A stretch of 64,000 nt of DNA, taken from contig NZ_CP072392.1 of the NCBI RefSeq assembly GCF_017742835.1, positions 63,286-127,285 on the forward strand, given 5' to 3'. The notes under the pieces were generated by a model that was not told where the DNA came from, ran no database searches, and worked only from the letters and a program-made list of their open reading frames with translations. Position numbers and translations under genes: made by a program. Below are positions 6,412-30,010 of the stretch, piece by piece. Within the stretch, counting starts at the first letter, position 1. Every line of letters begins with the position of its first letter. Source of the DNA: Aquabacter sp. L1I39 (GTDB taxonomy: Bacteria > Pseudomonadota > Alphaproteobacteria > Rhizobiales > Xanthobacteraceae).

Positions 6412-7043
6412 CTCACCGTGACCTTATTGGCGAATTGCGCGCCATAGGTGCTTGAGGAGGTGAGATCCGTGAAGAAGCTCTCGGACAATTGCATGGTCTG
6501 CGGCTGGTTCGGCACGATCACCTGCGAGGAGCAGCCCGAGGGCGCTCCCGCGAGGGCCACCGGATCCTTGTCGGCGAAACTGAAAGAAACGAAGTAAGTT
6601 GGGTCGTAAATGTCGAAGCTCATGGTCCCCTTGGACGGTATGGGCTTGACCAACGGCAGGATGAAGTGAAGCGTCAGCGCTTCGTTCTCATAGGTCAGGT
6701 AATAGTCGACCGGATCCTTGAAGGCGAGCTTGGCGGTCGCGTTCTTGGCCTTGACGAAATAGCCATATTCCTTGAGCGAGGTGACATTCACCTCCGCGAG
6801 TGGCTTCAGGACCTTATCTGGATAGGTGCCGTCCTTGTTGCGCTCCAGGCCCTGGAGAGCGAAGGCGGTGAAGGCCTCGTCGAAAGTCCAGTCCTGTTTC
6901 AGCCCGGTGACCATGCCGTCCGGCCCATACATGACCTGCGTCTGCATGGTCACCCAGACATGGGGATGAGCGAGCGCGCTTCCCACCGAGCCGAGAACGG
7001 CCAGCATGGCGCATGCGAGAAGTCGGATCGAACGCGGAATCAT
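6402..7043 (-). CDS. zevA: DUF1007 periplasmic protein, ZevA-like
   Basis: A protein of 213 residues with a clear signal peptide (LLACAMLAVLGSVGSALA) cleaved before HPHVWV, the characteristic mature N-terminus of DUF1007. The free His-Pro-His end is a plausible metal ligand. The start at ATG 7043 has AAAGGTG upstream; an in-frame extension to 7106 is rejected because it would precede the signal peptide with 21 basic residues and run through a hairpin. It forms a two-gene operon with the NicO transporter and probably delivers metal to it. Confidence 0.75.
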   Translation of the reverse strand: MIPRSIRLLACAMLAVLGSVGSALAHPHVWVTMQTQVMYGPDGMVTGLKQDWTFDEAFTAFALQGLERNKDGTYPDKVLKPLAEVNVTSLKEYGYFVKAKNATAKLAFKDPVDYYLTYENEALTLHFILPLVKPIPSKGTMSFDIYDPTYFVSFSFADKDPVALAGAPSGCSSQVIVPNQPQTMQLSESFFTDLTSSSTYGAQFANKVTVRCP

Positions 7044-7059
7044 GGCCACACCTTTCAGA

Positions 7060-7088
7060 CGCCGAACTCCTCGCTTGGCAGTTCGGCG
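7060..7088 (-). promoter_or_regulatory. Hairpin between dnaJ and the DUF1007 gene
   Basis: A perfect 9-bp inverted repeat (CGCCGAACT 7060-7068, AGTTCGGCG 7080-7088) with an 11-base loop lies between the dnaJ stop and the DUF1007 ribosome binding site. There is no T-tract. It could weakly terminate dnaJ transcription, be an operator, or act as a leader hairpin. Confidence 0.4.
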
Positions 7089-7121
7089 GAAGGATGGCGG
7101 ACGCATCTTGGCGGCGACCCC

Positions 7122-8276
7122 TCAGTCCGGGTCGGCCGCGCCCTGGAAGAAATCCTTCATCTTGGCAAAGAAACCGTTGGATTCCGGATGGGTCTCGTTG
7201 GAGCACTCGCGGTCGAATTCCGACAGCAGTTCCTTCTGGCGCTTGGTGAGGTTTTGCGGCGTCTCCACCACCACCTGCACATACATGTCGCCATGGTTGC
7301 GGGTGCGCATCACCGGCATGCCCTTGCCGGACAGACGCAGGCGCTTGCCGGACTGGGTGCCTTCCGGGATCTTCACCTTCGACTTTTCGCCGCCGATGGT
7401 GGGCACTTCCACCGTGCCGCCCAGCGCCGCCGTCACCATGGAAATGGGCGCCCGGCAATAAAGGTCTGCGCCTTCCCGCTGGAAGAAGGGATGGGGCTCG
7501 ATGGACAGGAAGATGTAGAGATCGCCCGCAGGACCGCCCCGCGTGCCGGCTTCGCCCTCGCCGCCCAGGCGAATACGGGTGCCATCCTCCACGCCCGCCG
7601 GAATGTGCACGGTGAGGGTGCGCTCGCGGGTGACGCGGCCGGCACCGCCGCAATTGGGGCAGGGGTCCTCGATCATGCTGCCACGGCCTTGACAGGCGGG
7701 GCAGGTGCGCTCCAGGGTGAAGAAGCCCTGGGCATGGCGGATCTTGCCCGCGCCGCCGCAGGTGCGGCAGGTCTTGGGCTGGGTGCCCGCCTTGGCGCCG
7801 GAGCCCGAGCAGGACTCACACACGATGGAAGTGGGGATCTTGATCTGGGCATCCTTGCCGGCGAAGGCTTCTTCCAGCGTGATATCCATATTGTAGCGCA
7901 GGTCCGCCCCGCGCCCGCGCCCGCCATTGCCCGGCCGGCCGCGCCCGCCGCCCATCTGGCCGCCGAACAGATCGTCGAAGATGTCGGCGAAGGTGGAGGC
8001 GAAGTCGGCGCCAAATCCCGGCCCACCCGGCCCGCCGCCCCCCATGCCATTTTCGAAGGCGGCATGGCCGAAGCGGTCATAGGCGGCGCGCTTCTGCGGG
8101 TCCTTCAGGACCTCATAGGCCTCGTTGACTTCCTTGAAGCGGATCTCGGCCTCGCCGTCGCCCTGGTTGCGATCGGGGTGCCATTTCATGGCGAGCTTGC
8201 GGTAGGAGGCCTTCAGCACCGTTTCATCGGCACCGCGGTCGCATCCCAGAACTTCGTAATAATCGCGCTTCGACAT
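7122..8276 (-). CDS. dnaJ: Chaperone protein DnaJ
   Basis: A Hsp40 co-chaperone of 384 residues that stimulates DnaK ATPase and delivers unfolded clients. The J domain occupies residues 1-70 with HPD at 33-35. A Gly/Phe-rich stretch ([15 protein letters not shown]) follows, then four CxxCxGxG zinc-binding repeats ([32 protein letters not shown]), then the C-terminal substrate-binding domains. This is the complete type I architecture. It lies 200 bp downstream of dnaK on the same strand, the usual order. Confidence 0.98.
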
Positions 8277-8404
8277 GGCTCGTTACATCCGCCGCCCCGG
8301 TCCGGTAGGGGGCCCCTGAAGCGTCATGTGCGGCACCACGCCCCTTCCGCCCCGGCGAGCCGCGGGCACATGGTCCGAGGGGCGGGCAACAGGTGCCCCG
8401 ATAC

Positions 8405-20071: not shown

Positions 20072-20848
20072 ATGGACATGAGCGAAAGCAAGGCACCGGC
20101 GCCTGCCCGGGGACGCCCACCGGGATCAGGGCGCGGCCGCCCCGCCGGAACCGTGCGTCCCCGCCCCGTCGATGGCGAGCCGGCGGTGGAGAGCGACCGC
20201 ACGACACGCGAGCATCTGCTGGAGACGGCCGAACGCCTGTTCGCCCGCAACGGCATAGACGGCACCTCCATGCGCGAGATCAACCGCGCGGCGGACCAGC
20301 AGAATGCCTCGGCCATCCATTACTATTTCGGCTCGAAGGAGGCCCTGGTCACAGCCATCCTCGACCAGCGCATGTCGGCGGTGAACGAAGCCCGCATGAA
20401 CGTGCTGGACGCCCTTGAGGCCGCCGGAATGGCGGGGAACCTGCGGCGGGTGACGGAGGCTTTCATCCTGCCCTTGGCGGCGCAGACCAATGACGGGACA
20501 GGATCCAACAATTATATCGGCTTCCTGGCCCAGTTCTATGCCAGCCACCAGTTCGACATCTGGACCATCGCACGGGACCGGCATGATGAGAGTCTCTCGC
20601 GGGTGGTGAGCCTCATCCACCGCATCCTGCCCGCCTTGCCCCGTTCGCTGGTGCGAGACCGCGTCTCCATCGCGCTGCGCCAGGCCATCTATGCCCTGGC
20701 GGATTTCGAGCGCGACAGCGCCGCCGGCCGCAGCCCCATGGTGCTGGGACGCGACGGCTTCATCGCCAATCTGGTGGACATGACGGAAGGAGCGCTATCG
20801 GCTCCGCTTTCGGAGGCGACGCGCCGGGCGCTGGAACGACCGGCCTGA
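20072..20848 (+). CDS. TetR/AcrR family transcriptional regulator
   Basis: A protein of 258 residues. A basic, Pro/Gly/Arg-rich N-terminal extension of about 45 residues precedes the TetR helix-turn-helix (LLETAERLFARNGIDGTSMR, then SAIHYYFGSKEALVTAIL). The C-terminal domain is helical with a conserved-looking YIGFLAQFYASHQF segment. It is divergent from the TctC-like/acyl-CoA dehydrogenase operon and likely regulates it, and perhaps the synthetase operon, in response to an acyl-CoA. The ligand is inferred from context only. Confidence 0.9.
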   Translation: MDMSESKAPAPARGRPPGSGRGRPAGTVRPRPVDGEPAVESDRTTREHLLETAERLFARNGIDGTSMREINRAADQQNASAIHYYFGSKEALVTAILDQRMSAVNEARMNVLDALEAAGMAGNLRRVTEAFILPLAAQTNDGTGSNNYIGFLAQFYASHQFDIWTIARDRHDESLSRVVSLIHRILPALPRSLVRDRVSIALRQAIYALADFERDSAAGRSPMVLGRDGFIANLVDMTEGALSAPLSEATRRALERPA

Positions 20849-20881: not shown

Positions 20882-21751
20882 CTAAACCGCGCGGCCGGCG
20901 CCGGCGGCCGGCTTGGCGCCCTGATGGGACATCTGCTTGGCCTTGGCGATACGGCCGTTGACCGCGTAGGACAGGCCCACGATCACCGCCACCGTCGCCA
21001 CATAGGCGATGACCTGCATGCCCGTCGGCTCGGCGCGATAACCGACCAGCGTGCGCAGGACCCGGCCCACCGCGCTGTCATCCGCCAGCAGCCAGGTGCT
21101 GTTCCAGACGGGGTCCGCGAGGCTCTGGATGAAGCCTGAATCCTGCAGGATGCCCACGGCCTGGGCCGACAAGCCGGCGGCCAGCAGGGTGATGAGGATG
21201 GTGGTGGTCTTGAACAGGTGCTTGACCGGAATGGCCACGAGCCCGCGATAGAGCACATAGGACACCGCAGCGCCGGCGAGGATCCCCAGCGCAAAACCGA
21301 GCGCCACATTGGCCGCTGTCTCGCCGCCGCTGACGGTGAGGCCATACATGAACAGGACAATCTCAACGCCCTCGCGCAGCACCGCCATGCCGACGACGAT
21401 GCCCAGCGCCGCGATGGGGCGCCGGCCCTCTTTCACGTCGCGGCCGACCGCCTTCATTTCCATGACCATTTCGCGGCCATGGCTGGCCATCCACACCACC
21501 GTCCAGACCAGCATCACCACCGCCACGGAAAGGATGGCGGCGTTCAGCAATTCCTGGCCCGAGCCGTCGAAGAGATTGGCGATGCGTTCGGCGAACAGCG
21601 CGATAAGGGCAGAGCCGACCACGCCGCCGGCGATGCCGAGGCTGATCACTAATCCGCGCCCGCGAATGCCTTCGGACGCCGCCAGCATGACGCCCACGAT
21701 CAGGCCCGCCTCCAGCACCTCGCGAAACACGATGATCAACGCTGCCAACAT
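20882..21751 (-). CDS. efeU: FTR1-family high-affinity iron permease (EfeU-like)
   Basis: A membrane protein of 289 residues with seven predicted helices. Both REXXE iron-binding motifs are present: FREVLEAG at residues 9-16 in the first helix and LREGVEIVLF near residue 125. These are the signatures of yeast Ftr1 and bacterial EfeU. The start follows AGAGGAT. It is transcribed divergently from the imelysin/multicopper oxidase genes, with 580 bases of regulatory DNA between. It probably imports Fe(III) produced by periplasmic oxidation. Confidence 0.93.
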   Translation of the reverse strand: MLAALIIVFREVLEAGLIVGVMLAASEGIRGRGLVISLGIAGGVVGSALIALFAERIANLFDGSGQELLNAAILSVAVVMLVWTVVWMASHGREMVMEMKAVGRDVKEGRRPIAALGIVVGMAVLREGVEIVLFMYGLTVSGGETAANVALGFALGILAGAAVSYVLYRGLVAIPVKHLFKTTTILITLLAAGLSAQAVGILQDSGFIQSLADPVWNSTWLLADDSAVGRVLRTLVGYRAEPTGMQVIAYVATVAVIVGLSYAVNGRIAKAKQMSHQGAKPAAGAGRAV

Positions 21752-21850
21752 GGGCCGATCCTCTCGTGAACGGTCTGGCAGGGCGGAAAGCGGGGATGGG
21801 CGCTACGGCCTCCTCACCCCTCGTTCTGGCCACCGCCAGCTGCACTTAGA

Positions 21851-21865
21851 TTAGAAATATTCAAA
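21851..21865 (-). promoter_or_regulatory. Irr/ICE-like box upstream of efeU
   Basis: TTAGAAATATTCAAA matches the core of the rhizobial iron control element (TTTAGAA-N3-TTCTAAA) in TTAGAA, the three-base spacer, TTC and the final AA. It lies about 100 bases upstream of the permease start. Control by Irr is inferred from the match and the iron-uptake context. Confidence 0.45.
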
Positions 21866-21912
21866 GTGACAATGTCTTGTTCTCTACTGTCTGCTACACC
21901 CGATCAACGGCG

Positions 21913-21941
21913 CTGTCACTTGGTGGCACGGCGATTATAAT
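21913..21941 (+). promoter_or_regulatory. Sigma-70-like promoter candidate in the iron intergenic region
   Basis: CTGTCA (21913-21918) and a perfect TATAAT (21936-21941) with a 17-base spacer point towards the imelysin operon. Transcription would begin near 21948, giving a leader of about 380 bases, which is long; a closer promoter may also exist. Confidence 0.4.
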
Positions 21942-22189
21942 GATTCCAAAGAGGCGACATCGCAACAATCTGATTCCAAACCTTTCCTTAGGTCAGTCAC
22001 GCCCACCACCGCATCCGTTCATTACCCTAAGTATAATTTCGTATAGCTGCCCACGTGGATGGCACAGCCGTCCCGGAGCTGAGTGATATGCAGCAAACCC
22101 GTGCAGGCATTGGGCTGCATTGCCCAATCGTTCCGCAACGCTCGGCATTTGCCGCCGTGCGCGAGGCCGGAAGGAGGCTCAAATTCAAT

Positions 22190-22204
22190 ATGGAATAATT
22201 CCAT
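22190..22204 (+). promoter_or_regulatory. Perfect palindrome upstream of the imelysin operon
   Basis: ATGGAAT-A-ATTCCAT, 7-bp perfect arms, about 130 bases before the imelysin start. Its centre is GAA-N3-TTC, as in the box at 21851-21865, so one iron-responsive regulator may bind both. Confidence 0.45.
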
Positions 22205-22331
22205 CATTTCCTTCCGACCTTGTGACGGCCCAGTTCGGAGCGCTAGTTTGCGGTCGGATTTGCGGCGCCGTCTGCGGAACAGCGAGTTGCTGTTTGCGCC
22301 CTGCGCAAGTCTAGCCGAGGAGAAGACAGTT

Positions 22332-23639
22332 ATGCGCGCGAAGTTTGCCGCCGCCGCACTCGCCCTTGCCGTGGGGCTCGGGGGCTCCATTGCCCCCGTT
22401 GCGGCCGAGACCAAGCCCGCCGCCACGCAGGCCGCCGGGCCGAAGGCGCGGGACGTGATCGTGAGCTACGCCAACCAGGCGGAAGCCATGTACACGAACT
22501 CCTATCTGGCCGCGAAGGAGATGCAGACCGCCATCGAGGCGCTCATCGCCAATCCCAGCGCGCAGACCCAACAGGCCGCCAAGGACGCCTGGAAGAAGGC
22601 CCGCGATCCCTATCAGATCACCGAGGCCTTCCGGTTCGGCAACAAGATCGTCGACGAGTGGGAAGGCAATGTGAATGCTTGGCCGCTGGACGAAGGCCTG
22701 ATCGACTATCTCGACAAGTCGCGCGGCACCTCCTCCGACGAAAACCCCCTCTATGCGGCCAATGTCATCGCCAGCAAGACCATCCGCATCGGCAAGAAGA
22801 CCGTGGACGTGAGCAAGATCACGCCCAAGCTCCTGCACGACCTCAACTCCGCCGCCGGCGTAGAATCCAACGTGGCGAGCGGCTGGCACGCCATCGAATT
22901 CCTCCTCTGGGGTAAGGACTTGCACGGCACCGAACGCGGCGCCGGCGAGCGGCCCTGGACCGACTACGACACCAAGGCCTGCACCGGCGGCAATTGCGAG
23001 CGCCGCGCGCAATATCTGAAGGTCGCCACCCAGACGCTGGTGGACGACCTGAAGGAAATGGCCGACGACTGGGGCGCCAAGGGCAAGGCCCGCGCCGCCC
23101 TCCTGAAGAAGAAGGACAAGGCCGGCCTCGCCGTCATCTTCACTGGCCTCGGCTCGCTCTCTTATGGCGAACTGGCCGGCGAGCGCATGAAGCTCGGCCT
23201 GCTGCTGCACGATCCCGAGGAGGAGCATGACTGCTTCTCCGACAACACCCACAACTCGCATTATTATGACGAGGTGGGCATCCAGGACGTCTATTACGGC
23301 CGCTTCACCCGTATCGACGGCACCACTTTCTCCGGCCCCTCGGTGGCGGACTTGGTGCGCGCCAAGGATGCCAAGATCGCCGACGAGATCGACGCAAAGA
23401 TGGCTGCCGCGCTCGCTGCGTTGAAGGCCATCAAGGACACCGCCGACAGCGGCGAGATGTTCTACGACATGATGCTCGCGGAAGGGAATGCGAAGGGCAA
23501 CAAGCTGATCCAGGACGGCGTCGACGCCCTGGTGGCCCAGGCCCACGCCATTGAGCGCGGCGTCGCGGCCCTCAAGATCCAGATCAAGGTGGAAGGCTCC
23601 GAGAGCCTCGACAACCCCGAGGCCGCCAAGAAGAAGTGA
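22332..23639 (+). CDS. Imelysin-family periplasmic iron-uptake protein (EfeO/IrpA-like)
   Basis: An exported protein of 435 residues with a signal peptide (AAAALALAVGLGGSIAPVAA). The imelysin (M75) domain spans nearly the whole mature protein. The conserved GWHAIEFLLWG segment near residue 190 carries the family HxxE motif, implicated in metal binding. Unlike E. coli EfeO it has no cupredoxin domain. The start at ATG 22332 follows GAGGAGAAG and is the only position that places a signal peptide first. It heads a five-gene plus-strand cluster facing away from the FTR1 permease and probably captures iron for it. Confidence 0.9.
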   Translation: MRAKFAAAALALAVGLGGSIAPVAAETKPAATQAAGPKARDVIVSYANQAEAMYTNSYLAAKEMQTAIEALIANPSAQTQQAAKDAWKKARDPYQITEAFRFGNKIVDEWEGNVNAWPLDEGLIDYLDKSRGTSSDENPLYAANVIASKTIRIGKKTVDVSKITPKLLHDLNSAAGVESNVASGWHAIEFLLWGKDLHGTERGAGERPWTDYDTKACTGGNCERRAQYLKVATQTLVDDLKEMADDWGAKGKARAALLKKKDKAGLAVIFTGLGSLSYGELAGERMKLGLLLHDPEEEHDCFSDNTHNSHYYDEVGIQDVYYGRFTRIDGTTFSGPSVADLVRAKDAKIADEIDAKMAAALAALKAIKDTADSGEMFYDMMLAEGNAKGNKLIQDGVDALVAQAHAIERGVAALKIQIKVEGSESLDNPEAAKKK

Positions 23640-23673
23640 CGGCACGGATCAAGGACGGGCCGCATCGGCCCAA

Positions 23674-23700
23674 GGCCGGGACCCCGCGCGGGCCCCGGCT
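23674..23700 (+). other. GC-rich hairpin between imelysin and multicopper oxidase genes
   Basis: GCCGGG at 23675-23680 pairs with CCCGGC at 23694-23699 with further GC pairing inside. There is no T-tract. It may reduce or stabilise the transcript between the first gene and the rest of the operon. Confidence 0.35.
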
Positions 23701-23737
23701 ACCCGCCCGGCGGCGGGTCAGGCAAGGAGCTTGAGGA

Positions 23738-25207
23738 ATGATTTCAAGGCGCGGCATGCTGCTCGGCGGCGCGGCGATGGGCTTGGTGGCGGCTGCCCCT
23801 TCGGCCATCGGACAGGTGCCCTCGGTGGATACCTTGCCGCCCACTGCCCCGGTCAAGCGCATCGCGCTCACCGCGCGCGAGATCGAGACCCGGCTGCTGG
23901 GGCCGGACAAGCCCGCTACCAAGCATTTCTGCGCCTATGACGGCGAGCCCTTCAAGATCTTCCGGTTTGAGCGCGGCACGCGTCTCGCGGTGGATTTCGA
24001 GAACCTTTTGCCCGACCCGACCACTGTGCACTGGCACGGCATCAGGGTGCCCAACCTCTCCGACGGCGTCGCCCCCCTCACCCAGGAGGTGATCGCCCCC
24101 GGCGGACGCTTCAGCTACAATGTGCCGCTGCCCGATGGCGGCTTTTATTTCTTCCATCCGCATTGCGACGAGACCGGTCAGGTGGGACGTGGCCTGTTCG
24201 CGCTGCTGATCGTCGACGACCCTCAGGAGCGCAAGGTACATTTCGACGCCGAGTGTTTCATCGTGGTGAAGGACTGGCGCCTCGGCGAGGATGGCCAGTG
24301 GATCGAGATGAGCACGGACGAGGGCGCCGCCACCGCGGGCACGTTCGGCACCGTTCGGGCCACCAATGGCTCGGTCATCCCGCCCCGCGTGGAGGTGCCA
24401 GCCTATGGTGACGTGCGGGTGCGCGCCATCGTCGCCGATGCCACCCGTGTCATTGACCTCGGCACCGATCATGACGATGCCGCCCTGATCGCGGTGGACG
24501 GACAGGCGCTTCTTCCGCCCGCATTGACGGACCATCTGCCCGACGGCATCTGGCGCATGGGGCCGGCCATGCGGGCCGACCTGCAGGTGCGCATGCCGGG
24601 GCCGGGACAAGAGGTGAAGGTCTATGACTATCGCTCCAGCGAGCCCTATCTCCTGACCACCCTCGTGGCGGTGGACAAGGGGCTGAAGAAGACCCCCTTC
24701 AAGCCCAAGGCCCTCCCCGCCTCCACGGCACCCATGCCGGACCTCAAGAGCCCCAAGACGCTCGACTTCCTGGTGCAGGTCTCGGCGGGCGCTACCGCGA
24801 TCGGCGTACCGCTGCCGGATGACGACCCACTCGCCAAGGCGCTGGTGGATTCGCTCTGCGTGGGCGCCAAAACCCATTGGGCCATCAGCCGGGATTCCTG
24901 GGCCACCGGCGAGGCGTTGCGCCTGCCACCGCCGCTGAGCCAGCTGAGCGCCGGGACCACCTATGTGGTCAATTGCACCAATGTCACCAAGCATGTGCAT
25001 CCCATGCACCTGCATGGCCATGTGTTCCGCGTCCTGTCCTCGTCCAAAAAGACGGGCATGCCGCAATATCTTGCCGACACCGTGATCGTGGAGCCCAACG
25101 AGACCGTGAAGTTCGCCTTCAAGGCGACCAGCGGCAACTGGGTGTTCCACTGCCACATCCTCGAGCACATGGACACCGGCCTCATGGGCTGGTTCCGGGT
25201 GAGCTGA
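23738..25207 (+). CDS. Multicopper oxidase (probable periplasmic ferroxidase)
   Basis: A protein of 489 residues with a twin-arginine-like N-terminus (SRRGMLLGGAAMGLVAAAPS), consistent with export of a folded copper enzyme. All four copper motifs are present: HWHG and FHPHCDETGQ in the first cupredoxin domain, and HPMHLHGHVFRV and VFHCHILEHMDTGLMGW at the C-terminus. The residue ten positions after the type 1 cysteine is Leu, not Met, as in high-potential oxidases and yeast Fet3. The gene lies between an imelysin and a di-haem oxidoreductase and opposite FTR1, so ferrous iron oxidation coupled to uptake is the best inference. A general laccase or copper-detoxifying role is the alternative. 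Confidence 0.9.
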   Translation: MISRRGMLLGGAAMGLVAAAPSAIGQVPSVDTLPPTAPVKRIALTAREIETRLLGPDKPATKHFCAYDGEPFKIFRFERGTRLAVDFENLLPDPTTVHWHGIRVPNLSDGVAPLTQEVIAPGGRFSYNVPLPDGGFYFFHPHCDETGQVGRGLFALLIVDDPQERKVHFDAECFIVVKDWRLGEDGQWIEMSTDEGAATAGTFGTVRATNGSVIPPRVEVPAYGDVRVRAIVADATRVIDLGTDHDDAALIAVDGQALLPPALTDHLPDGIWRMGPAMRADLQVRMPGPGQEVKVYDYRSSEPYLLTTLVAVDKGLKKTPFKPKALPASTAPMPDLKSPKTLDFLVQVSAGATAIGVPLPDDDPLAKALVDSLCVGAKTHWAISRDSWATGEALRLPPPLSQLSAGTTYVVNCTNVTKHVHPMHLHGHVFRVLSSSKKTGMPQYLADTVIVEPNETVKFAFKATSGNWVFHCHILEHMDTGLMGWFRVS

Positions 25208-26457
25208 TGGGGAGGCACAAAGGGCGCGTCGCCTGGACCACCGGGCTGCTCCTGGCGGTTACGGCCATGGGTGCGCAAGCGCTGGACAAGCTGGACCTGG
25301 CCATTGGCAAGGCCCTGTTTGACCGTGCCTGGGTGCAGGCGCCCGCCTCCACCAAGGGCGATGACGGGCTGGGGCCCCTCTACGATGCCCGCTCCTGCGC
25401 GGCCTGCCATCCCCGCGACGGCCGCGCGGCCATGGTGGTAAACGCCAAGGGCGAGCTGGAAGGGCGTGGCGCGGTCCTGGTCCTGGGCCAGCCAGGCGGG
25501 GGCGGCGATCCGGTGTATGGGCGGCGCCTCCAGATCGACGCCATTCCGGGGCTGCGGCCTGAAGGCATTCTGGCTGTAAGGTGGGAGACACAATCGGATG
25601 GCCGCGCCCGTCCTGTCCCGGCGCCCACGGATCTGGGCTACGGGCCCTTGGCCCCGGCCACCGGCATGTCGCTTCGCATCGCGCCCGATCTGAGGGGCCG
25701 CGGCCTGCTGGAGCAGGTGCCGGACGAAGCCATCCTCGCCATCGCGGCCGAGCAGGCGCGGGGGCCAGATAGGGTGAAGGGCACGGCACGCCGGATCACG
25801 CTGGCCGACGGCACCTCCACCCTCGGCCGCTATGGTTGGAAGGCCAACCAGCCCACCATCGCGGCGCAGTCCTCGGAAGCCTTCTTCCTCGACCTCGGCC
25901 TGTCCACCCCGCTGCATCCCGAGCCCTGGGGCGATTGCACCGAAGCACAGCCGGCCTGCCGCAATGCGCCCCACGGCATCGAGGCGGAGGGGCAGCTCGA
26001 AATCCCAAGCGCGCTGCTCGACCGGGTGGTGGCCTATGTGGCCGCCTTGCCAGCCCCCCCTGCCGAGCGCGACCCGAAGGGCGCCGCCCATGATGGCAAG
26101 GGCGCCGCGCTGTTCGCCGCGACCGGCTGCGCCACCTGCCACCGCCCAGCTTTGCCCACCCGGGATGGCGGCAGCGCACCGCTCTTCACAGACCTCCTGC
26201 TGCATGACATGGGGCCCGGCCTCGCCGACACCTTGCCCGATCCCGGCGCCGCGCCTGCCCAGTGGCGAACGGCACCCCTTGCCGGCATATCCGATGCCCT
26301 GGCGCGGAAAACGGGACTTCTCCATGACGGCCGGGCCGCCGGAATTGCCGAGGCGATCACCTGGCATGATGGCGAGGCGCGCTCCGCGGCAGAGCGCTTC
26401 ACGGCCTTGAGCCCGGCGCAAAAGGCCGCTCTCATCGCCTATGTCTCGCGCCTGTGA
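25207..26457 (+). CDS. Di-haem c-type cytochrome oxidoreductase (DHOR family)
   Basis: A periplasmic protein of 416 residues with an N-terminal signal (TTGLLLAVTAMGAQA). Two haem c attachment motifs are present, CAACH at residues 64-68 and CATCH at 308-312. Other family features are GLGPLYDARSCAACH, the GRYGWKANQPTIAAQS segment, and LLHDMGPGLAD and LLHDGRA near the end. ATG 25207 overlaps the oxidase stop by one base (TGATG), so translation is coupled. DHOR genes commonly sit between two imelysin genes. Here it could shuttle electrons from Fe(II) or the copper enzyme, but its role is not established. Confidence 0.88.
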   Translation: MGRHKGRVAWTTGLLLAVTAMGAQALDKLDLAIGKALFDRAWVQAPASTKGDDGLGPLYDARSCAACHPRDGRAAMVVNAKGELEGRGAVLVLGQPGGGGDPVYGRRLQIDAIPGLRPEGILAVRWETQSDGRARPVPAPTDLGYGPLAPATGMSLRIAPDLRGRGLLEQVPDEAILAIAAEQARGPDRVKGTARRITLADGTSTLGRYGWKANQPTIAAQSSEAFFLDLGLSTPLHPEPWGDCTEAQPACRNAPHGIEAEGQLEIPSALLDRVVAYVAALPAPPAERDPKGAAHDGKGAALFAATGCATCHRPALPTRDGGSAPLFTDLLLHDMGPGLADTLPDPGAAPAQWRTAPLAGISDALARKTGLLHDGRAAGIAEAITWHDGEARSAAERFTALSPAQKAALIAYVSRL

Positions 26458-26533
26458 GCGGGGCAAGGCATGGTAAGACAAAAGGCCCGGCGGGCGTGAG
26501 CGAAACGAGGGCCAGGTGCGGGAGCATGGACCA

Positions 26534-27613
26534 ATGACGAGCAGATTGACCCGGCTGGCCCTTATGGCTCTCGCCTGGACCGGCGTCGTAGCGGGAACGC
26601 CCGCCCAGGCCGAATCTCCGGCGTTCGATTCCGTCGCGATCATCGAGACCTGGCTGCTGCCCCGCTATGATGCCCTCGGCGCCTCGACGAGCGCCCAGTC
26701 CGATGCCTGGACGGCTTTCTGCGCCAAGCCCGCGGAGGCGGGGCTCCCCGCCCTCAAGCATGCCTTCACAAAAGCTGCCGACACTTGGACGGCGGTGGAA
26801 TTCGTCACCTTCGGACCGGCCAGCCAGGACTTGCGGCCGGATCGGTTCAACTTCTTCCCGGACCGGCGCAATGCTATTTCCCGCGCCATGGCCGAGGTTC
26901 TGGCGGATCCGGATGCGGCCCGCTTCGCCCAGGAGCGTTTCGCCAAATCCAGCGCCGCCGCCCAGGGCTTCCCCGCCCTGGAGCGCCTGCTGTTCGAGGA
27001 TGGCGCAGGTGCCCAATTGACCGCCGGCCCCGAGGCGGCGCGCCGCTGCACCTATGCCAGCGCCATCGCCCTGAACCTTGCCACCATGGCCAAAGAGATT
27101 CGCACCGCCTGGGGAGATCGCACTGCCGGCGTCCTTGCGGCCATTGTGTCGGGCAAGGGCGATCCGGCCTTGTTCCCGGACGTGGGCGCCATTCCCGGGA
27201 TGATCCTCACGGACCTCTCCGGCGCCTATCAGCGTGTCACCGACACCAAGATCCTCCCTGTCCTCGGCCCAAATCCCGACGGGGCCAAACCTACGGTGGC
27301 CGACAGCTGGCGCGCCGGGCGCTCGGGCCAGGTGGTGAAGGTGATGATCCAGAGCGCCGACGCGCTGCTTCAGGAAGTGGCCAAACAGATGCCAAGCCGC
27401 CCCCAATGGGTGGTGAACAAGGCTGCCACGGCTGCCGACAAGGCGGCCGCAGACTTCCCGGCCGATCTCGGCGCCGCCGCCCAGAGCGCCGCCAGCGCCA
27501 ACAGGATTCTCGCCGACATCAAGACCTTCAAGGCGGCCCAGCTCACGGTCTACCGTCCGGTCGCGTCCTATTTCGGCATCTCGCTGGGCTTCAATGCCCT
27601 GGACGGAGACTGA
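26534..27613 (+). CDS. Second imelysin-family protein
   Basis: An exported protein of 359 residues (signal LALMALAWTGVVAGTPAQA). The imelysin fold is recognisable from WTAVEFVTFGPASQDLRPDRFNFFPDRRNAI near residue 80 and the terminal VASYFGISLGFNALDGD. It is shorter than and only distantly related to the first imelysin; the GWHAIEF motif is replaced by AVEFVTFGP, so its metal chemistry may differ. ATG 26534 is chosen because it begins a good signal peptide; GTG 26516 is an alternative. It lies 76 bases downstream of the di-haem gene. Confidence 0.85.
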   Translation: MTSRLTRLALMALAWTGVVAGTPAQAESPAFDSVAIIETWLLPRYDALGASTSAQSDAWTAFCAKPAEAGLPALKHAFTKAADTWTAVEFVTFGPASQDLRPDRFNFFPDRRNAISRAMAEVLADPDAARFAQERFAKSSAAAQGFPALERLLFEDGAGAQLTAGPEAARRCTYASAIALNLATMAKEIRTAWGDRTAGVLAAIVSGKGDPALFPDVGAIPGMILTDLSGAYQRVTDTKILPVLGPNPDGAKPTVADSWRAGRSGQVVKVMIQSADALLQEVAKQMPSRPQWVVNKAATAADKAAADFPADLGAAAQSAASANRILADIKTFKAAQLTVYRPVASYFGISLGFNALDGD

Positions 27614-27627
27614 AGGAGGCCCGAAGG

Positions 27628-28755
27628 ATGGCTCTGACCCGCCGCGCCTTTCTCGCCGGCACCACCGCCGGCCTCGTCCTCGCGCCCGCTTTTGCCATGG
27701 CACAAAGCCAGCTCCACGCGCAGGCCCACGCCCTCGACGAAGGCTGGATGACCACTGCGGGCATCGGCCAAGGATTCGGTGCCTTCGCCTTGGGCGCGGC
27801 CTTTGAAGCCCAGGAACGGGCGCCCTCCGTCGCCCGACTGCACGGCATCGAGGCGAGTCCGCGCGGACCCCTGGCGGTGGCAGTGGGCCGGAGGCCGGGC
27901 CATGTGGCCGTGGTGTTCGACCGCACGCACGGCGGCCCGGTCGCCGAATTCGCGCCCGGCACGGGTCGCGTCTTCTCCGGCCATGGCCGTTTTTCTCCCG
28001 ATGGCACGCGGTTCCTGACCAACGAGATCGAGCGGGGCGTCGCGGATGGCCCCACCCGCACAATGGGGCGCGGCATCGTGGCCGTGCGGGCCGTGGCAGG
28101 CGGGTTCGAAATCGTGGACGAATGGCGCACGGGCGGCGATGGGCCCCACGACCTCATGCGCAACGGCCCCCATTTGGTGGTGGCCAATGGCGGCATCGAG
28201 CCCAACACGCCCGAAGCGCTTGATGCCGAGGTCACCGGCAGCAGCATCACCCTGCTCGATCCCGACACCGGCGCGGCACGTGGCGAGGGGCAGCTTTCCA
28301 CCGAGCTGGCCAGCCTGTCGCTCCGGCATCTCGCCCGCGACGAGGCCGGCAGCATTGTGGTGGCGGCACAGGATCTGCTGAAGGACGGGGTGTCCCGTCC
28401 GCTCCTCTTCTCCATCGGAGCGGAAGGCGCACTGACCCCATTCGAGGCCCCGGAGGGCGAGCTTCTGGCCCTGCGCGGCTATGTGGGCTCGGTGGCGTTC
28501 GACGCTTCCGGCGCCTTCATCGCCTGCTCCAGCCCGCGCGGCGGGCGCATCGCCATCTGGCGGCGGGACGGGCGCTATATGGGCGCGGTGCCGCTGGTGG
28601 ATGGCTGCGGCCTGGCGGGGACCGCGCAGGCGGGACGCTTCCTCGCCACCAGCGGCTATGGCGAGGTGATCCTCATCGCTGTGGACGAAAGCGTGGGCAT
28701 CATCGACCGCCGCACCGGCGGTCCCCGCTTCGACAACCATATGGTGCGGGCCTGA
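27628..28755 (+). CDS. DUF1513 domain protein (beta-propeller-like, exported)
   Basis: A protein of 375 residues beginning with a Tat-like signal (LTRRAFLAGTTAGLVLAPAFA). The body is made of repeated short beta motifs (GHVAVVFDRTHG, GHGRFSPDGTRFLTNE, ITLLDPDTG, SVAFDASGAFIACSSPRGG) suggesting a seven-bladed propeller, as expected for DUF1513. AAGGAGG at 27613-27619 or GAAGG just upstream serves ATG 27628. It is the last gene of the imelysin operon; DUF1513 proteins regularly accompany imelysin and DHOR genes, but their function is unknown. Confidence 0.85.
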   Translation: MALTRRAFLAGTTAGLVLAPAFAMAQSQLHAQAHALDEGWMTTAGIGQGFGAFALGAAFEAQERAPSVARLHGIEASPRGPLAVAVGRRPGHVAVVFDRTHGGPVAEFAPGTGRVFSGHGRFSPDGTRFLTNEIERGVADGPTRTMGRGIVAVRAVAGGFEIVDEWRTGGDGPHDLMRNGPHLVVANGGIEPNTPEALDAEVTGSSITLLDPDTGAARGEGQLSTELASLSLRHLARDEAGSIVVAAQDLLKDGVSRPLLFSIGAEGALTPFEAPEGELLALRGYVGSVAFDASGAFIACSSPRGGRIAIWRRDGRYMGAVPLVDGCGLAGTAQAGRFLATSGYGEVILIAVDESVGIIDRRTGGPRFDNHMVRA

Positions 28756-28788: not shown

Positions 28789-29913
28789 TCAGGTGACGCA
28801 GCCGCGCCCGTCCACTGGCCACACCTCTTCCACCTGTTCGCCGCGCACCGCGACCATCCAGTCATATTGGGCGACGGTCGGGTCGCAATGGGACGGCACA
28901 AGGCGCAGCCGCTCTCCCAGCGCCGGCGCCGCCACGCCTTCGGCCGCCTCGATCCGCCCTTGCTCGTCGCTCGCCTTGGTGAAGGAGAGGTCGGGTCGCC
29001 CGGCCACGGCGGGCGGGCCGCAATCCAGGTTCAGTGCCTTCGCTCCGGCATCCACATAGGCCAGCCCCGGCGCGGGCGTGCGCAGCACCCCCGCGAGCAC
29101 GAACAGGCTCTGGGCAAAGGGCCGGTAGGGCGCGCCGTCGGCGTCGAGATTGCGGGCATAATCCACGTCCATGAAGACGTAGGAGCCGGGCTGGATCTCG
29201 TCCAGGAGCCCACTGGCCAGGTCCGCCTCGAAGCTCCCCGTACCCCCGCCCGTCACCAGCGGACAGGGCAGGCCGGCGGCGCGGATACGGGCGCGGGCCT
29301 CCGCCGCCCGCTCCCCGGCCTGATGGGCGGCGCGGGCGCGCTCGGCGGCGCCGCGCAGATGCTGCATGGGACCGTTATAGGCCTGGATGCCCCGAAGCTG
29401 GAGGCCCGCCGCGCTGTGGATCGCCTCGGCCAGCGGCAACAGCGCCTCGGGCGTCTGAAGACCCATGCGCGCATCCCCGGCGTCGATCTCGATGAGGATG
29501 TGGAACGTCACCCCTGCCGCCCGCGCCGCATCCGACAGCAGGGCCACATGGGTCAGGTCGCTGGCGAGCGTCGTCACCCGGACTTTGCCCGCGAGTGTGG
29601 CGAGACGCTCCAGCTTGCGCGCGCCCACCACGTGATTGGAGACCAAGAGGTCCTCCACCCCGCTCGGCAGCAGTGCCTCGGCCTCCGAGACCTTCTGGCA
29701 GCACAGGCCCACCGCGCCGGCGGCAAGCTGGCGGCGGGCGATAGCGACGCTCTTATGGGTCTTGCCGTGGGGGCGCAGCGCCACGCCCGCGGCCCTGGCC
29801 CGCGCCGCCATGAGGGCGATATTGGCCTCCAGGGCGTCGAGGTCCACCATCAAAGCGGGGGTATCGATCTCGGTGAACACATCGCCGGAGCGGGCAGGCA
29901 CGGGGGACGTCAC
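28789..29913 (-). CDS. DSD1-family PLP enzyme (D-threonine aldolase/3-hydroxyaspartate aldolase-like)
   Basis: A fold-type III PLP enzyme of 374 residues. The alanine-racemase-like barrel starts with TEIDTPALMVDLDALEANI; the PLP lysine is K51 in RPHGKTHKS. The C-terminal metal site HCD (VPSHCDPTVAQYD) is the zinc-binding pair of D-serine dehydratase and D-threonine aldolase. GTG 29913 is preferred because AAGGAAG lies at the right distance and family proteins begin close to TEIDTPA; a longer frame to 29991 has no support. Its neighbour is a TetR gene on the same strand. The exact substrate among D-threonine, D-serine or 3-hydroxyaspartate is open. Confidence 0.82.
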   Translation of the reverse strand: MTSPVPARSGDVFTEIDTPALMVDLDALEANIALMAARARAAGVALRPHGKTHKSVAIARRQLAAGAVGLCCQKVSEAEALLPSGVEDLLVSNHVVGARKLERLATLAGKVRVTTLASDLTHVALLSDAARAAGVTFHILIEIDAGDARMGLQTPEALLPLAEAIHSAAGLQLRGIQAYNGPMQHLRGAAERARAAHQAGERAAEARARIRAAGLPCPLVTGGGTGSFEADLASGLLDEIQPGSYVFMDVDYARNLDADGAPYRPFAQSLFVLAGVLRTPAPGLAYVDAGAKALNLDCGPPAVAGRPDLSFTKASDEQGRIEAAEGVAAPALGERLRLVPSHCDPTVAQYDWMVAVRGEQVEEVWPVDGRGCVT

Positions 29914-30010
29914 GGGCAGCTTCCTTGCAGGCCGCCGAAGAACAAGCGGCGGGCACCCTTTGTAGCAGGAACCGGCAGCGGGCACAGGCATGCCGGCCGG
30001 CTGTCTCGCC

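Follow-up and report, generated by a model that had tools for sequence, protein, structure and literature searches.

A multicopper oxidase within an imelysin operon divergent from an FTR1 permease in Aquabacter: a possible bacterial analogue of yeast Fet3-Ftr1

Introduction

Does an FTR1-type iron permease that is divergent from a periplasmic operon containing a multicopper oxidase (MCO) form, together with that operon, one system for the oxidation and uptake of iron? The locus that raises this question lies in a 64-kb stretch of DNA (the window) from the 5.39 Mb genome of Aquabacter sp. L1I39. Its unusual features are a Tat-type MCO placed between an imelysin and a di-haem oxidoreductase (DHOR), plus the divergent FTR1 gene. 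No description of an imelysin/DHOR/MCO operon facing FTR1 was found in the open-licence PMC literature. We suggest that the locus, built on the known imelysin/DHOR/imelysin/DUF1513 operon, could oxidise iron in the periplasm and import it under the control of Irr, an interpretation from sequence that we hold to be evenly poised between right and wrong.

Results

The locus consists of the following genes.

20882-21751, minus strand: FTR1/EfeU-type iron permease (PF03239, 106.6 bits against a cut-off of 25.3)
22332-23639, plus strand: imelysin 1, ICMP type (PF09375, 281.9 bits)
23738-25207, plus strand: MCO (PF07732, 100.3 bits; PF07731, 97.2 bits)
25207-26457, plus strand: DHOR (PF06537, 176.1 bits)
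26534-27613, plus strand: imelysin 2, IPPA type (PF09375, 117.4 bits)
27628-28755, plus strand: DUF1513 protein (PF07433, 267.2 bits)

All six ORFs are intact and in profile searches each matched its family at or near the coordinates first given, so the gene content described in the initial annotation stands; the gene bounds given there were roughly right, although in several cases the longest ORF extends upstream of the true start. From imelysin 1 to DUF1513, the distances between the genes of the operon are 98, -1, 76 and 14 nt. No Rfam families or tRNAs (0) were found within the window.

The imelysin/DHOR/imelysin/DUF1513 part is a common alphaproteobacterial operon that is already known. 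Imelysin 1 carries GxHxxE (GWHAIE) and, as read from its sequence, a Sec-type signal without a lipobox; its best solved relative is 7xrx, an insulin-cleaving metalloproteinase outer membrane protein (371.9 bits), which makes it ICMP-like and not EfeO-like as had been proposed. In imelysin 2 the motif is GFPALE at residue 145, a GxxxxE form in which the His is lost, and its sole solved relative is the imelysin-like protein 3pf0; HxxE is thus confined to the first imelysin, as noted earlier. The DHOR has two CxxCH motifs (residues 64 and 308) and is compact, lacking the GGxxT...F segment that DHORs usually carry at the N-terminus. The DUF1513 protein has a Tat-type signal and its fold is a beta-propeller, probably with seven blades, according to an AlphaFold model (mean pLDDT 88.4) that in a Foldseek search matched generic propellers, with no function indicated.

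An ICMP-type imelysin, DHOR, an IPPA-type imelysin and DUF1513 stand here in the order of the PA4370-PA4373 operon of Pseudomonas aeruginosa, in which we take the DUF1111 protein to be a DHOR. As described in the available part of the source (Xu et al. 2011, PMC3143127), that operon is iron-regulated through Fur; it resembles ours in its ICMP-type imelysin, DUF1111 di-haem protein and IPPA-type imelysin (GxxxxE) and in what is here a predicted regulation by iron. Our locus differs in the MCO that separates imelysin from DHOR, in the divergent FTR1, in boxes that look more like Irr than Fur sites and in the missing lipobox of imelysin 1. The iron control of our operon is predicted from the Irr/ICE-like boxes in its sequence. 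Outside the own family the MCO was absent from 26 of 28 imelysin loci, and the DHOR adjoined the imelysin in 26/28, only two of these having the MCO. Four of the five periplasmic parts therefore make up an ordinary operon, with the MCO insertion as an unusual addition. For the same reason we rejected the DHOR as a substitute for EfeB, and the proposal that copper oxidase and di-haem protein replace the peroxidase is not supported.

The permease has both REXXE motifs (REVLE at residue 10, REGVE at residue 126) and the divergent orientation first reported. It is a permease of the EfeU/FTR1 kind, though its score against the NCBIfam EfeU equivalog (140.3 bits) is under the cut-off of 255. In the available parts of PMC9174327 and PMC3577903, the EfeUOB/FepABC systems likewise combine an FTR1/EfeU permease with a periplasmic imelysin-fold protein; they differ in the Cupredoxin_1 domain of EfeO and in the DyP peroxidase EfeB, neither of which was found in our genome, and in the families of their imelysins. 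The whole genome contains only two imelysins, ICMP-like and IPPA-like, so that no EfeO (cupredoxin plus M75) or EfeM-type imelysin was found, and the view that the locus is built from EfeUO modules was ruled out because both imelysins resemble other families. The absence of EfeB noted at first was borne out by 0 matches to the DyP N-terminal domain PF04261 anywhere in the genome (3/14 control genomes gave matches). Cupredoxin_1 was not detected in the whole genome, nor was a P19-like PF10634 protein of FtrABCD/P19 systems found there (the control was positive in 1/14 genomes). That the usual redox partners of FTR1 (DyP, Cupredoxin_1 and P19) were undetected in the genome was counted for an oxidase-permease reading.

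Eleven other FTR1 loci were found in the same family, and in 7 of the 8 tested a Cupredoxin_1 protein adjoins FTR1. A copper-protein partner is thus usual, with the linked MCO as the candidate here; the search for a cupredoxin partner covered the Cupredoxin_1 family. The dipartite pairs (L154-L160) have an FTR1 about 50% identical to ours and an adjoining copper-protein partner, but that partner is one cupredoxin of 110-133 aa, whereas here there is none and the MCO operon faces FTR1.

Wherever the contigs reach far enough, Aquabacter, Azorhizobium and Xanthobacter have the six genes in this order, indicating that the arrangement is not due to chance. The flanking TetR and BhcC genes are common only to the nearest relative (L033) and were for this reason ruled out as parts of the system. 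The oxidase is kept in orthologous loci of close relatives: among the sampled genomes of the family, searched from the imelysin side, all six with the imelysin have an adjoining MCO (19 named loci with the MCO were left out because the MCO had been their query). In quick trees, a single clade of linked MCOs (p-AU 0.17) and a single clade of MCO-linked loci for imelysin 1 (p-AU 0.68) were not rejected; with seven unlinked MCOs among the linked ones, we do not take these trees to prove that the gain happened only once.

The MCO insertion also occurs without adjacent FTR1: four other alphaproteobacterial families show this, as do two members of the own family. Eight outgroup loci have the MCO linked to the operon and no FTR1 within the fetched stretch, and a search at E 1e-20 through the whole genome of the relative G022, which keeps the MCO operon, brought up no FTR1. 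Retention of the MCO does not, then, need FTR1, and it is conceivable that the MCO serves the imelysin/DHOR module only, where it would reduce O2 as the last step or act as an accessory in iron oxidation, FTR1 having been independently recruited and co-regulated with no hand-over between them. Favouring this explanation too, the N-terminal DHOR segment is present in 0/28 MCO-linked DHORs versus 24/24 unlinked DHORs read (23 by a loosened pattern, an earlier stricter one having given 12/24, and L076 by eye), which points to a relation between MCO and DHOR. However, FTR1 is divergent in 18/18 clade loci long enough to reveal it, an iron-type box accompanies it in 12/18, and the genome yielded none of the other known partners of FTR1; we consider the explanation unlikely, though it deserves real weight.

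The MCO has a Tat-type signal (SRRGML) and the complete copper-ligand motifs of a four-copper oxidase (HWH, HPH, HPMHLH, HCH...H). Its best solved relatives are 6vow, 6vox and 4f7k, with 6vow as the nearest fold. Both sequence and fold place it among bacterial laccase/CueO-like enzymes, as would be expected if it were a copper-protective (cuprous) oxidase or a laccase present in an iron operon by chance. We judge this quite improbable, for the MCO lies far under the curated cut-offs for CueO (124.7 of 525 bits) and CopA (121.4 of 479 bits), and there is no Met in its sequence between residues 333 and 423 (i.e. 334-422), where CueO has its Met-rich loop. Moreover, it sits between imelysin and DHOR in linked loci, and in the Aquabacter/Azorhizobium/Xanthobacter clade it lies beside FTR1 and iron-type boxes.

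A ferroxidase activity of the MCO is predicted from sequence. The residue four before the T1 His, a position that we take to be Asp in Fet3p (D409 equivalent), is Thr in 26/26 readable linked MCOs; in the 65 readable unlinked MCOs it is Thr in 51 and Ser in 14. In the available part of PMC9174327, the Fet3-type acidic Fe(II) site near T1 comprises E185, D283 and D409, and the D409-equivalent Thr, the one of these three positions that was mapped, departs from it. The T1 axial position is Leu in our MCO and in all 18 readable MCOs of the clade, versus Met in 8/8 linked MCOs outside it, and the Leu may reflect one event on one branch. We dropped it as a sign of Fet3-like chemistry because it also occurs in 17/65 readable unlinked MCOs and in the solved 6vow/6vox. 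The model of the MCO (mean pLDDT 76.9, low at residues 349-397) is moderate and gives no basis for arguments on active-site geometry. The stop of the MCO overlaps the start of the DHOR by 1 nt in this genome, and by 1-8 nt in 18/22 loci examined, as counted with script-chosen starts and with one genome counted twice.

The following elements were read in the intergenic region.

21851-21865, no strand: second ICE-like box TTAGAAATATTCAAA, 0 mismatches to TTNGAANNNTTCNAA
21914-21919, minus strand: putative FTR1 -35 (GTGACA), in a conserved TGACA block upstream of FTR1
21935-21949, no strand: ICE-like box of the FTR1 promoter, TTATAATGATTCCAA on the plus strand, one core mismatch
22191-22203, no strand: palindrome TGGAATAATTCCA, Irr/ICE-like box of the imelysin operon
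22219-22248, plus strand: putative operon promoter, CTTGTG - 18 - CTAGTT

The core of the operon-side box is present in 18/18 clade loci, compared to a shuffle mean of 0.65 of 18, and lies 116-155 nt upstream of the imelysin start (191 nt in L036); CTTG follows exactly 16 nt after it in 18/18 loci (L036 read from the printed sequence). The strict pattern has two sites in the genome, this box and one between cysteine desulfurase/sufB/sufC genes and a divergent ORF. Upstream of FTR1-less operons the palindrome matched in 2/34 cases, scattered, and in 0 with CTTG at the 16-nt spacing. The FTR1-side box lies 19 nt upstream of TGACA and recurs at this spacing with at most one mismatch in 12/18 loci, a count taken as the best of a range of offsets without a shuffle control; it fails in 6/18, in one case because the spacing is off by one base. 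A consensus promoter scan found neither the operon nor the FTR1 promoter. An IrrA gene is present (219.8 bits against a cut-off of 150), with GCPFHD and HYH.

Both divergent units apparently share iron control. The conserved gene block and the iron-type boxes at both promoters support this control and the linkage at the level of sequence, in agreement with the initial view that FTR1 and the MCO operon belong together. The least probable explanation is that the unit oxidises and detoxifies periplasmic Fe(II) in iron-replete cells and is repressed by Irr under iron limitation, for although Irr is described as a repressor of genes under iron depletion (PMC3413700, available part) and the box at 21851-21865 is downstream of the putative FTR1 promoter, in a repressor-like place unlike the other two boxes, the operon-side box is upstream of the putative -35, its centre at about -58 being a place for activation, and FTR1 belongs to an importer family.

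Discussion

Gene content, order and conservation, the MCO-DHOR overlap and the promoter palindromes are direct observations, around which the proposed iron-oxidation and import unit may be pictured as follows. The imelysins would bind iron and hand it on. The MCO, co-made with the DHOR, would oxidise Fe(II) directly; alternatively, it would take the electrons that the DHOR removes from Fe(II) and pass them to O2. DUF1513 may be a scaffold or docking propeller, and FTR1, judging from its family, would move the resulting Fe(III) into the cytoplasm. Irr would bind the boxes upstream of both promoters and switch both units at low haem/iron, most likely on because of the box position.

From its sequence, the locus may be to bacteria what Fet3-Ftr1, the iron oxidase-permease pair, is to yeast. 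According to the available parts of PMC9174327 and PMC3832793, Fet3-Ftr1 likewise joins an FTR1 permease to a four-copper oxidase, under what is here apparently a shared iron control; our locus differs in the Tat-type signal of its MCO and in the kinship of this enzyme with laccases and CueO, in having Thr in place of the Asp that precedes the T1 His, and in its additional imelysin/DHOR/DUF1513 parts. Counted against the oxidase-permease reading were this Thr, the MCO being kept without FTR1, the null promoter scan, the downstream ICE-like box (21851-21865) and the FTR1-side boxes failing in 6/18.

More tentatively, as something possible rather than probable, we suggest that an oxidase-dependent bacterial iron importer arose here stepwise and independently of Fet3-Ftr1. 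The MCO would first have entered the imelysin-DHOR operon and taken over part of the redox role of the DHOR. FTR1 and the Irr boxes would then have been added on the Xanthobacter/Azorhizobium/Aquabacter branch, where the T1 site of the MCO has Leu and not Met. Together, imelysin, DHOR and MCO would act as one electron and iron relay loading FTR1 with freshly oxidised Fe(III).

This lineage has added a copper oxidase and an iron permease to an imelysin/DHOR operon, apparently under one iron-responsive control. The locus makes testable the question of what imelysins and the DHOR do in iron uptake, namely whether the operon oxidises periplasmic iron and with which electron acceptor. The genera of the clade are culturable soil bacteria known for nitrogen fixation. 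If our reading is true, they would offer a bacterial case that parallels the ferroxidase and permease of fungi.

Organization of the locus

The genome consists of one contig of 5,388,224 bases, and Aquabacter sp. P-9 is its nearest named relative by both the multicopper oxidase (MCO, 95%) and imelysin 1 (98%). The six genes listed in the initial annotation were confirmed as open frames with clear families, and the 580 nt separating FTR1 from imelysin 1 were read for conserved boxes.

20882–21751 (−): FTR1, iron permease (PF03239)
22332–28755 (+): operon of imelysin 1, MCO, DHOR, imelysin 2 (imelysins both Peptidase_M75, PF09375) and DUF1513 (PF07433)
23738–25207 (+): MCO (PF07732/PF07731)
25207–26457 (+): di-haem oxidoreductase, DHOR (PF06537)
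22191–22203: perfect palindrome TGGAATAATTCCA in the FTR1–imelysin 1 intergenic region
21851–21865: second box TTAGAAATATTCAAA, 3' of the predicted FTR1 promoter

FTR1 carries both REXXE motifs (REVLE and REGVE) and DHOR two CxxCH motifs, and the imelysins are indeed unlike, with HxxE in the first only (GWHAIE vs GFPALE). The gaps along the operon are 98, −1, 76 and 14 nt. As read from the sequence, MCO and DUF1513 have Tat-type N-termini (SRRGML and TRRAFL), and both imelysins and DHOR have Sec-like starts lacking a lipobox cysteine. The window contained no tRNA and no Rfam family at the gathering threshold. A TetR gene (20072–20848) and a BhcC-like aldolase gene (28789–29991) flank the unit, an arrangement shared, among the loci read, with locus L033 only.

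A known operon with one added gene

The closest PDB relative of imelysin 1 is the insulin-cleaving (ICMP) protein 7xrx (371.9 bits) and that of imelysin 2 is the imelysin-like protein 3pf0, which we take to be the IPPA structure; the proposal that the locus was built from EfeUO modules was thus wrong. We also take PA4373 of Pseudomonas aeruginosa to be a DUF1513 protein. Xu et al. 2011 (PMC3143127) set out four families, imelysin (ICMP), IrpA, IPPA and EfeO, note that IPPA members lack the motif histidine, and describe the P. aeruginosa PA4370–PA4373 operon as Fur-regulated, with an ICMP, a DUF1111 protein termed an EfeB homologue, and PA4372 of the IPPA family; on that description, its two imelysins are kin of imelysins 1 and 2 here. 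The core of imelysin 1, DHOR, imelysin 2 and DUF1513 is an already known operon.

We compared 28 imelysin 1 loci outside Xanthobacteraceae (11 from the order and 17 from the class, leaving out L092, a weak class match at 30% identity, and a fragment from genome G043). Some of these stretches end early. DHOR lay alongside imelysin 1 in 26 of the loci, and 22 each had imelysin 2 and DUF1513; MCO lay between imelysin 1 and DHOR in two, and FTR1 was found in none. Because of these counts, what had been regarded as a five-component chain is really four common parts and one addition, the MCO. Since DHOR ordinarily accompanies imelysin 1, its role as a replacement for EfeB, standing in for the peroxidase, was rejected. 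The absence of EfeB itself held, as no DyP N-terminal domain was found in the genome, which has only two imelysins.

Spread and origin of the MCO insertion

Imelysin 1 was present in 18 of 61 relatives, and MCO adjoined it in all six of these that belong to Xanthobacteraceae, so the oxidase is not missing from the orthologous loci of the close relatives sampled. Across 385 genomes sampled from the class, a profile of linked MCOs (those between imelysin 1 and DHOR) matched 69 at E 1e-60. Among the best 30 of these matches, our genome and the six highest-scoring others (G097, G323 and G400 of one genus, G111, G184 and G302) were flanked by imelysin 1 and DHOR, and the 23 lower-scoring ones had no such flanks within about 1.5 kb or less; the profile was built partly from G097 and G111, so the ranking is not independent. 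A phylum-wide sample of 398 genomes gave 23 matches at E 1e-110, linked in our genome, G022 and G097 and unlinked in the other 20. The linked arrangement was found in Xanthobacteraceae and four other families (f63, f77, f149 and f35).

Monophyly of the linked MCOs was not rejected (p-AU 0.17), with seven unlinked MCOs nested within them in the tree, nor was a single origin of imelysin 1 (p-AU 0.68); the trees are compatible with a single origin of the arrangement. An N-terminal GGxxT...F segment was found in 0 of 28 linked DHORs read vs 24 of 24 unlinked ones, which come from L064–L091 (12 by the first pattern, 23 by a looser, post hoc pattern, and L076 by eye). In 18 of 22 loci the MCO and DHOR genes overlap, by 1–8 nt. 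Because L036 and L060 represent the same genome, the segment and overlap counts include one duplicate.

Individual loci varied. In G184 (L127), imelysin 2 and DUF1513 were undetected on a 10.5-kb contig. The operon of G400 (L126) holds a tandem pair of imelysin-2-like matches (6573–8286). The operon-linked MCO of G002 (L062, 7234–8496, −) lacks about 85 residues carrying the HPxHxHG copper ligands, reflecting a broken gene or an assembly fault.

FTR1 in the Aquabacter/Azorhizobium/Xanthobacter clade

With the MCO as query, named genomes yielded 27 loci, 19 of which (L033–L051) belonged to Aquabacter, Azorhizobium, Xanthobacter or metagenome kin and were 63–95% identical to it; the remaining eight were distant and without the neighbours. 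FTR1 was divergent from imelysin 1 in all 16 of L033–L051 with enough sequence (the contig stops before FTR1 in L034, L037 and L047; L037 and L049 end within the block) and, with the window and G014 (L061), in 18/18. For the eight linked loci that do not belong to the clade (L062, L063, L077, L086 and L125–L128), the fetched stretches contained no FTR1, and the Pfam-identified flanking genes were unrelated. G022 had no FTR1 anywhere in its genome at E 1e-20, and G002 had only a distant one elsewhere.

In Xanthobacteraceae, 11 further FTR1 relatives were found; the adjoining small ORF, checked in eight, encoded Cupredoxin_1 (110–133 aa) in seven. In L154–L160 each FTR1 is paired with such a small protein, apparently a simple two-gene FTR1 system. 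Neither Cupredoxin_1 nor P19 was found in our genome.

Boxes, promoters and putative control by Irr

The core [AG]GAAnnnTTC[CT] occurs once per locus in 18/18 clade loci, 116–155 nt ahead of the imelysin start (191 nt in L036, where the start may be misplaced), and after dinucleotide shuffling in a mean of 0.65 and a maximum of 3 of the 18 loci, the clade loci being related and hence not independent trials. It was upstream of 2 of 34 operons without adjacent FTR1, at scattered positions. The strict pattern TRGAAYNRTTCYA matches the genome at two sites, the palindrome at 22191–22203 and one (L095, 4190–4202; G000:C1:5026689–5026701) with cysteine desulfurase/sufB/sufC genes on one side and a divergent ORF on the other. 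A backwards-read control pattern has ten sites, so there is no over-representation of the palindrome as such.

The alphaproteobacterial promoter consensus is CTTGAC/CTATAT. On the operon side, CTTG lies 16 nt past the box in 18/18 loci (L036 by eye), followed at a −10-like distance by a CTA-containing hexamer in 12/18 by reading. Upstream of FTR1, 12/18 loci carry a GAAnnnTTC box (one mismatch allowed) 19 nt ahead of a conserved TGACA, a count from a best-of search without shuffle control; the spacing is 20 in L038, and L039, L041, L048, L049 and L050 do not fit. A simple promoter scan recovered neither predicted promoter.

By their resemblance to the ICE consensus, the boxes are putative Irr sites. 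An IrrA gene is present in the genome (219.8 bits against a cut-off of 150), with HYH and GCPFHD, the latter presumably the haem regulatory motif of Irr. According to a review (PMC7762939), Irr of the IrrA kind, Xanthobacter included, has an HXH and a haem regulatory motif, and ICE location sets activation or repression. Because the boxes are centred at an estimated −58 or so from the predicted promoters, activation is the better guess; however, the location of TTAGAAATATTCAAA, downstream of the predicted FTR1 promoter, is one that suits repression.

Substrate of the MCO

The copper-ligand motifs of the MCO are complete, and by motif its predicted copper-oxidase chemistry is secure. The protein's scores fall well short of the cut-offs for CueO and CopA, and Met is absent between residues 333 and 423; by fold it is closest to 6vow, Thermus laccase, Pediococcus laccases and CueO. 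Fet3p has Asp four residues before the T1 His, whereas all 26 readable linked MCOs have Thr. By context alone, namely the imelysin operon, FTR1 and the iron-type boxes, iron is favoured as the substrate. No description of this MCO/FTR1/imelysin unit was found in open-licence papers. Although the parts list of the initial annotation, with EfeUO modules and a DHOR substitute, was wrong, its central idea, an oxidase linked with a permease in the handling of iron, was right.
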